The notes under the pieces: generated by a model
Databases searched by the model: none
Told to the model about the DNA's origin: nothing
The model's input: the letters and a program-made list of their open reading frames with translations, nothing else
From: Ruminococcus sp.
Lineage (GTDB): Bacteria > Bacillota > Clostridia > Oscillospirales > Ruminococcaceae
Length of the DNA: 43,628 bases
Direction: 5' to 3'
Assembly (NCBI GenBank): GCA_031262495.1
Contig: JAISHV010000045.1
Location: 1 to 43,628 of the forward strand
Program-made: the position numbers and the translations under genes
Part shown: one piece after another, positions 783-43,316 of the stretch
Layout: each line of letters opens with the position of its first letter
Numbering within the stretch: position 1 is the first letter of the stretch

Positions 783-947
783 ATTAAAAAACGCCATGCG
801 TTTTTTAATGCTCGTCAGCTTTGCTGACGAGAGCTGCCCGTAGGGCGGCAGAGAAGCCGTTCAATACTAATATCTGCGGCTTTAGCCGCCCGCCGCTTTG
901 CGGCGGCAATAAAAACATTTTCAATGTTTTTATTGGATATTAGTATT
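783..947. repeat. Family E: cluster of six small-loop hairpins including a cloverleaf
   Basis: Six perfect or near-perfect hairpins lie in 165 bp. Hairpin 1: 783-794/798-809, 12 bp, loop CAT. Hairpin 2: 811-819/823-831, 9 bp, loop TTT. Hairpin 3: 833-839/843-849, 7 bp with one G.T pair, loop GTA. An outer 12-bp stem, AATACTAATATC (863-874) with GATATTAGTATT (936-947), then encloses three more: 876-881/884-889 (loop TT), 890-896/900-906 (7 bp, loop TTT) and 907-919/923-935 (13 bp, loop TTC). Only base 875 is unpaired at the junction, so 863-947 can form a four-way cloverleaf. It lies between clpX and hemZ. No open frame or rRNA/tRNA similarity is seen. Confidence 0.85.
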
Positions 948-29926: not shown

Positions 29927-30004
29927 TGTAGGGGGCGATGTCCACATCGCCCCGCAAACAAAAAATTCTACGTAAACGGGCGGATGTGGACATCCGCCCC
30001 TACA
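29927..30004. repeat. Family D palindromes, two units in inverted orientation
   Basis: Unit a: TGTAGGGGGCGATG then GGGCGATGT/ACATCGCCC (29933-29941/29944-29952). Unit b: GGGCGGATGT/ACATCCGCCC (29978-29987/29990-29999) followed by CTACA. The ends TGTAGGGG and CCCCTACA make the pair one inverted-repeat block, about 10 bases past the ilvE stop codon. Confidence 0.8.
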
Positions 30005-41435: not shown

Positions 41436-41464
41436 GCGGGCGACCGAGGGCGGTCGCCCCTACA
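41436..41464. repeat. Family D palindrome
   Basis: GGGCGACCG (41438-41446) pairs with CGGTCGCCC (41451-41459), loop AGGG, then CTACA. It lies 45 bp after rqcH. Confidence 0.8.
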
Positions 41465-41804: not shown

Positions 41805-41890
41805 TTGACATTCCCCTCCGTATATGCTATAATAAACGAGGTTGCAAAAATCAAACGCCTTTAGGAGTAATCCCGATGGGCGTTTTGTTA
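41805..41890 (+). promoter_or_regulatory. Promoter and attenuator-like hairpin ahead of pyrC
   Basis: TTGACA (41805-41810), 17 bases, TATAAT (41828-41833) is a perfect consensus. Transcription from about 41840 would soon meet AAACGCC (41853-41859) pairing with GGCGTTT (41879-41885) and a T4 run, a short intrinsic-terminator shape. The loop contains AATCCCGATGGGCG, which partly resembles the PyrR-binding consensus (11 of 14 by eye). It may be an attenuator for pyrC or a small RNA; pyrC begins 180 bp later. Confidence 0.6.
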
Positions 41891-41921
41891 TACTAATATG
41901 CAATAAAAAATGAAATGATGT

Positions 41922-41992
41922 GCGGGCGGGCGAGGGCGCCCGCCCCTACGGAACAATAGAACTCTGTAGGGGCGACCGCCCTCGGTCGCCCG
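41922..41992. repeat. Two family D palindromes, inverted
   Basis: First unit: GGGCGGGCG/CGCCCGCCC then CTACGG. Second unit: TGTAGGGGCGACCGCC with CGGTCGCCCG (41965-41992). They lie between the attenuator-like hairpin and pyrC. Confidence 0.75.
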
Positions 41993-42072
41993 TTGTTTCG
42001 GAAAAATTTAATCAATTCTTTAAATGCATATTTGTATTATAACTATTTGAATCTTTTTGGTGGAGGTAAAAA

Positions 42073-43176: not shown

Positions 43177-43316
43177 TGTAGGGGCGGGCGCCCCGCCCGC
43201 CCGCATATTCTAAAACACTTTATTTTAGAACAACACATGATTTTTTTAATTGGCAGTTTGTGCGTTTAAGGCATAGCATTTTTATAGTACGGGCGGGCGG
43301 GGGCGCCCGCCCCTAC
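43177..43316. repeat. Two family D palindromes after pyrC
   Basis: TGTAGGGGCGGGCG with CGCCCGCC (43177-43204) and GGGCGGGCGG with CGCCCGCCCCTAC (43290-43316). Between them TTCTAAAA/TTTTAGAA forms an 8-bp hairpin that may help end the pyrC transcript. No gene is seen from 43144 to the end. Confidence 0.7.

Follow-up and report, generated by a model that had tools for sequence, protein, structure and literature searches.

A 174-bp mobile element of two inverted, hairpin-bearing halves in Ruminococcus sp., with a plan shared across genera

Background

What is a nearly perfect DNA cloverleaf doing between two genes of a Ruminococcus sp. genome, and how large is the unit to which it belongs? The locus lies in a 43,628-nt stretch of DNA (contig JAISHV010000045.1, positions 1 to 43,628; hereafter the window), with clpX upstream and a hemZ-like gene just downstream. 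A first-pass annotation, made from the letters alone, had placed the cloverleaf at 863-947 with three small-loop hairpins beside it (783-849). It argued that such perfect arms must be young or actively maintained, and it named templated hairpin synthesis, a protein landing site and the end of a mobile element as possible readings. It also called for a genome search for related hairpin clusters and for a linked transposase or reverse transcriptase, and it named a match to a known RNA family or to a degraded IS end as the result that would speak against it.

Results

Folding positions 770-960 as single-stranded DNA gave a predicted energy of -63.9 kcal/mol, far better than shuffled sequence (mean -23.7, sd 3.3; z -12.3), and none of 200 dinucleotide shuffles folded as well. 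The outer stem, 863-874 with 936-947, is a perfect 12 bp, as had been annotated. The hairpins that it encloses had been given as 6, 7 and 13 bp; the second and third were found as described, but the first has 5 bp. The three hairpins at 783-849 are also present, yet they are part of the element rather than its neighbors. Limits of 863-947 were thus too narrow, since the real unit runs from 772 to 945, with TTA duplications on either side. Its plan is six hairpins in two inverted half-units (772-861 on the left, the cloverleaf on the right), and no ORF of 80 aa lies within the 174 bp. Features of the window copy, and of one related repeat, are given below.

769-771, no strand: left target-site duplication TTA, equal to 946-948
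772-945, + strand: complete element TACT...AGTA, 174 bp (genome copies; limits set by the empty site of the sister-species copy)
772-786, + strand: left terminal inverted repeat TACTATTCTCCATTA (fold and alignment)
777-781, + strand: TTCTC, pairing with GAGAA at 851-855 (fold and alignment)
782-810, + strand: hairpin H1, 13 bp, 3-nt loop (fold)
811-831, + strand: hairpin H2, 9 bp, 3-nt loop (fold)
833-849, + strand: hairpin H3, 7 bp, one of them a T-G pair; 3-nt loop (fold)
851-862, + strand: joint GAGAAGCCGTTC, a conserved stretch linking the halves (alignment of copies)
863-874, + strand: internal copy of the terminal repeat, AATACTAATATC, the 5' side of the cloverleaf stem (fold and alignment)
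876-889, + strand: hairpin H4, 5 bp here and 6 bp in certain sister copies; loop TTTA of 4 nt
890-906, + strand: hairpin H5, 7 bp, 3-nt loop TTT
907-935, + strand: hairpin H6, 13 bp, 3-nt loop TTC; the most conserved hairpin
936-947, + strand: right terminal inverted repeat GATATTAGTATT, the 3' side of the cloverleaf stem; its last two bases overlap the duplication
946-948, no strand: right target-site duplication TTA
768-848, - strand: left half as matched by the right-half covariance model (cmsearch E 3e-7)
41890-42037, + strand: a family B MITE; its terminal repeats are of the same type, and it is flanked by a TTA duplication

Related hairpin clusters were found when the organism's own genome (2.08 Mb in 104 contigs) was searched with positions 770-1000. 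Thirteen places matched at 81-96% identity over most or all of 180 bp, several of them cut by contig ends. Similarity in the alignment of these copies has abrupt limits, TATACTATTC at the left edge and ATTAGTATTA at the right. The terminal consensus at both ends of the alignment is TACTAWTMTCC. The general end pattern ATACTAATATNCANT matches the genome 100 times and its reversed control 5 times, and many of the 100 matches form inverted pairs 100-300 bp apart; most such pairs belong to a larger family with different interiors, family B.

Flanking TNA duplications were evaluated in 46 elements with ends TACT...AGTA, two copies with uncertain coordinates being left out. Identical 3-mers flank 35 of the 46. 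At the middle base, the informative position, the two sides agree in 38; shuffling gave 17.8 on average and in none of 200,000 rounds reached the observed count. In G004, a genome of the same genus, an element built to the same plan lies within the final codons of a gene, and the occupied site reads GCGCTTA/TACT...AGTA/TTATAAGG. The orthologue in a sister species, G003, is uninterrupted (GCTCTTATAAGG), with a single TTA at the matching place. The element is therefore mobile. Its 174 bp form a discrete unit bounded by inverted ends and flanked by a TWA duplication of 3 bp; the unit is dispersed in the genome, and a related copy has an empty counterpart site in a sister species. The suggestion that the cloverleaf was the end of a mobile element proved correct, in that it is half of a MITE whose outer stem is formed by the terminal inverted repeat and its internal copy.

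These data bear directly on whether the locus could instead be immobile, a structured regulatory RNA or cis element that stands alone and is fixed at this gene. Such a role would suit the very stable predicted fold and the position just upstream of the hemZ-like gene, but it does not fit the dispersed copies, the duplications and the empty site; moreover, the interval between clpX and its neighbor in G003 holds no element, and no Rfam family was matched at gathering score. Because of the dispersal and the empty site, we consider it refuted as the sole explanation and give it virtually no credence. ARAGORN found no tRNA at the cloverleaf, as the first-pass annotation had held, and tRNA, tmRNA and known RNA families were rejected on the ARAGORN and Rfam results; the only matches at Rfam gathering score in the window are two tRNAs, both away from the element. 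The best sub-threshold match was RF02902, AaHKsRNA22 of Aggregatibacter (778-864, 22.8 bits against a cut-off of 39.8), which shares a chain of hairpins with 3-4 nt loops; a match below threshold is no evidence of relationship. AaHKsRNA22, a supposed sRNA, likewise consists of consecutive hairpins with loops of 3-4 nt and may merit a check as a mobile element.

Terminal inverted repeats, a target-site duplication, short length, lack of coding content and multiple copies are all traits of the MITE class, and by these tests the element is a MITE in everything apart from an identified parent. TWA duplications are those of PIF/Harbinger (PMC4482050). With IS5-type bacterial MITEs and PIF-Harbinger 'Tourist-like' MITEs, the element shares a length under 500 bp, inverted ends, no coding content, AT-rich targets and the 3-bp TWA/TNA duplication that marks IS5 and PIF-Harbinger; it differs from them in that no parental transposase was found, and in having two inverted cloverleaf half-units with a shape conserved across genera, an arrangement not described in the sources consulted. 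Since TWA duplications belong to PIF/Harbinger and some branches of the IS5 family make TNA duplications, the enzyme would be a transposase of the IS5 type acting in trans, a class that is read solely from the duplication.

No linked transposase or reverse transcriptase was found. Profile searches of fragmented assemblies, with PF01609 in 10 genomes and with PF13359 and PF13586 in 5 genomes each, identified no transposase carrying the element ends in the own genome or its relatives. Terminal repeats with no partner within 700 bp were read inward, and they led to no recognizable transposase. An IS4-like fragment and an IS1182-like gene (labels that are our own reading of the sequences) were rejected as the parent, as were other profile matches, for want of element ends. 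There was no match in plasmid records, nor any match to the H6-plus-right-end pattern in viral contigs.

Other known repeats were also compared. REPINs and REPs have a GTAG- or CGTC-type foot as their hallmark and are mobilized without duplication by a Y1 transposase (RAYT, TnpA-REP); to our knowledge, Y1 transposases make no 3-bp duplication. The element resembles them in carrying two inverted hairpin units in one mobile piece and in being a many-copy small palindrome, but it has three hairpins and a closing stem per half. Because of its TACT..AGTA ends and 3-bp duplication, it is not a REPIN. BOX, RUP, ERIC, Correia and similar repeats are dispersed, non-autonomous and strongly folding; the element differs from these in sequence, module plan and host group, with homology compared through Rfam only. 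We found no description of a bacterial MITE of two inverted, shape-conserved cloverleaf units in the excerpts of open-licence literature consulted.

Family B is a second MITE family of about 150 bp, with about 30 copies in the same genome (L028-L097), and its ends and TWA duplications are of the same kind as those of the 174-bp element. Its core consists of GC-rich hairpins swapped between copies. The left end of one copy (L081:1522-1675) is replaced by right-end sequence, and the core of another (L077:4510-4632) is inverted relative to L069:3389-3518; both look like the remains of a template switch or an inversion. In both MITE families, and in a variety of contexts, hairpin loops contain a 13-nt hairpin cassette, GTAGCGTTGCTAC (L006:1616-1628, L031, L049, L051, L066, L083, L097). 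GC-rich small-loop hairpins occur in the window at 29932-29999, 41438-41459, 41924-41991, 43182-43202 and 43291-43312; they are mostly of the GGGCG...CGCCC type and resemble the GTAG-footed REP-like hairpins of family B. Repeats with ends like CTAAAACTTTACA and TGTAAAGTTTTAATTGGTGCTGG are inserted within family B copies (L032:1501-1970, L072:1538-1823, L078:3976), and one repeat of this type, which runs into a contig end, may be an IS.

To compare halves and genomes, a covariance model, R1, was built solely from the right halves of two species. Its source alignment (A4) misaligns H5, which leaves the model with only 29 pairs. As R1 nonetheless recovers left halves, on which it was not trained, and members in other genera, it served to detect elements and not to count pairs. 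Left halves were matched on the opposite strand, with E of 3e-7 in the window and down to 1e-11 in other copies, and the halves are therefore mirror versions of one plan. The left half consists of TTCTC, H1, H2, H3 and GAGAA, and the right half of AATACTAATATC, H4, H5, H6 and GATATTAGTATT. Certain genomes show a long closing stem in each half, or halves of different relative length.

Beyond the two species used to build it, R1 detected similar elements in ten genomes that represent four families of the order: G084, G205, G120, G025 and G106, all of the same family, and G542, G249, G267, G286 and G439, from that family and the three others. In several of these genomes the left half was also detected on the opposite strand. 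Most full copies outside the own genome lie between TAA or TTA duplications. G004 has the same six-hairpin order with different hairpins, and the plan is shared by G004, G084, G205, G120, G025, G249, G286 and G439 and, more weakly, by G106 and G267. The G025 copy stands in a larger cluster of perfect small-loop hairpins that extends past the element ends (L131:1365-1480, 1672-1860).

Eight representative types were compared by hairpin. Watson-Crick pairs make up 431 of their 435 listed stem pairs and G-T pairs another two, which is an upper bound because the hairpins counted were picked as hairpins; 37 of 46 loops are of 3 nt. Equivalent hairpins are present at the same places across types, while their inner sequences are unrelated: left-arm identity was 0.41 for H4 and 0.40 for H5, against 0.39 for shuffled arms in both cases, and that of H2 and H3 was only slightly above the shuffled level. 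The best conserved stretches are H6 and the joint GAGAAnCCGTTCAATACTAAT (ACTGACGGCATCCC in a second lineage). These comparisons show a two-half plan that is stable across genera although the sequences of the inner hairpins turn over.

Among copies in the own genome, seven base pairs have substitutions in both partners, such as C-G for A-T in the closing stem and T-A for A-T in H6, a count that none of 500 shuffles reached. This covariation is modest, and much of it comes from two related copies. With the retention across genera, it bears out the idea of active maintenance as far as shape is concerned. The inference of youth from perfect arms held only for the copies of this genome, which are similar (81-96% identity); the plan itself is old. 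G-T pairs outnumber A-C pairs by 10 to 4 in these copies, counts that give no decision between RNA and DNA because they are few and dominated by two related copies.

Discussion

The main question is what keeps the shape. One reading is that the hairpins of a mobile MITE are functionless, and that a polymerase switching template copies arm onto arm, so that positions persist and sequences drift together. Template switching is reported to create and maintain hairpins (PMC8794818). The replaced end of L081 and the inverted core of L077 relative to L069 in family B would agree with this, as would the occurrence of both TTT and AAA loops in sister copies and the rarity of G-T pairs. Taken alone, however, it leaves unexplained the number and order of the hairpins, the pairing of the terminal repeat with its internal copy, and the persistence of both halves across families; family B, with the same ends in the same genome, has long unpaired stretches. 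We regard template switching on its own as possible, if on balance unlikely.

Selection might also keep the shape through RNA, with the element acting in neighboring messages and its hairpin chain controlling mRNA stability or termination. Of 16 complete copies, twelve have co-directional genes on either side, often no more than 60 bp away, and stable stem-loops are common in MITE transcripts (PMC10969869). Against this, both orientations to the flanking genes are common (7 against, 5 with, 4 mixed), with no clear bias, and only 1 of the 16 copies lies in a convergent gap, where a terminator would be favored. The mixed orientation and the single convergent copy argue weakly against a terminator or strand-specific RNA role, and the terminator role itself was rejected on the latter count. 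G-T pairs are few and the loops mostly of 3 nt (37 of 46), which also fits RNA poorly. An RNA role seems quite improbable to us.

The explanation that we prefer, and hold to be probable though with some reserve, is a non-autonomous DNA transposon of the MITE class, made of two inverted half-units and moved in trans, whose shape is kept because folding matters. In each half, the terminal repeat or its inner part pairs with an internal partner, and as many as three tight hairpins are enclosed. The enzyme, supplied in trans, would be a DDE transposase of the IS5/PIF-Harbinger type, as the TWA targets suggest, and would recognize the terminal repeats. The form in which folding matters would most likely be DNA that is extruded or becomes single-stranded in the course of replication. 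The templated hairpin synthesis proposed earlier may survive here in another form, as DNA template switching at hairpins that helps to restore perfect arms. We thus favor selection on the folded nucleic acid, which is most likely DNA, with template switching in a helping role.

The transposase of IS200/IS605 recognizes hairpins in single-stranded ends. The element could represent a DDE-type family whose ends must fold into multi-hairpin cloverleaves for movement or regulation. Shape rather than sequence would then be the recognition or control signal, and the terminal repeat would switch between pairing with its internal copy and exposure to the transposase. This more specific proposal is, in our view, rather doubtful.

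These elements provide a natural case in which the shape of a mobile DNA is kept across genera with nearly all of the inner hairpin sequence changed. A structure model, beyond sequence search, was needed to see the common plan of repeats in different bacteria. They allow a direct test of whether folded DNA serves transposition, and of whether template switching alone can maintain complex hairpins.
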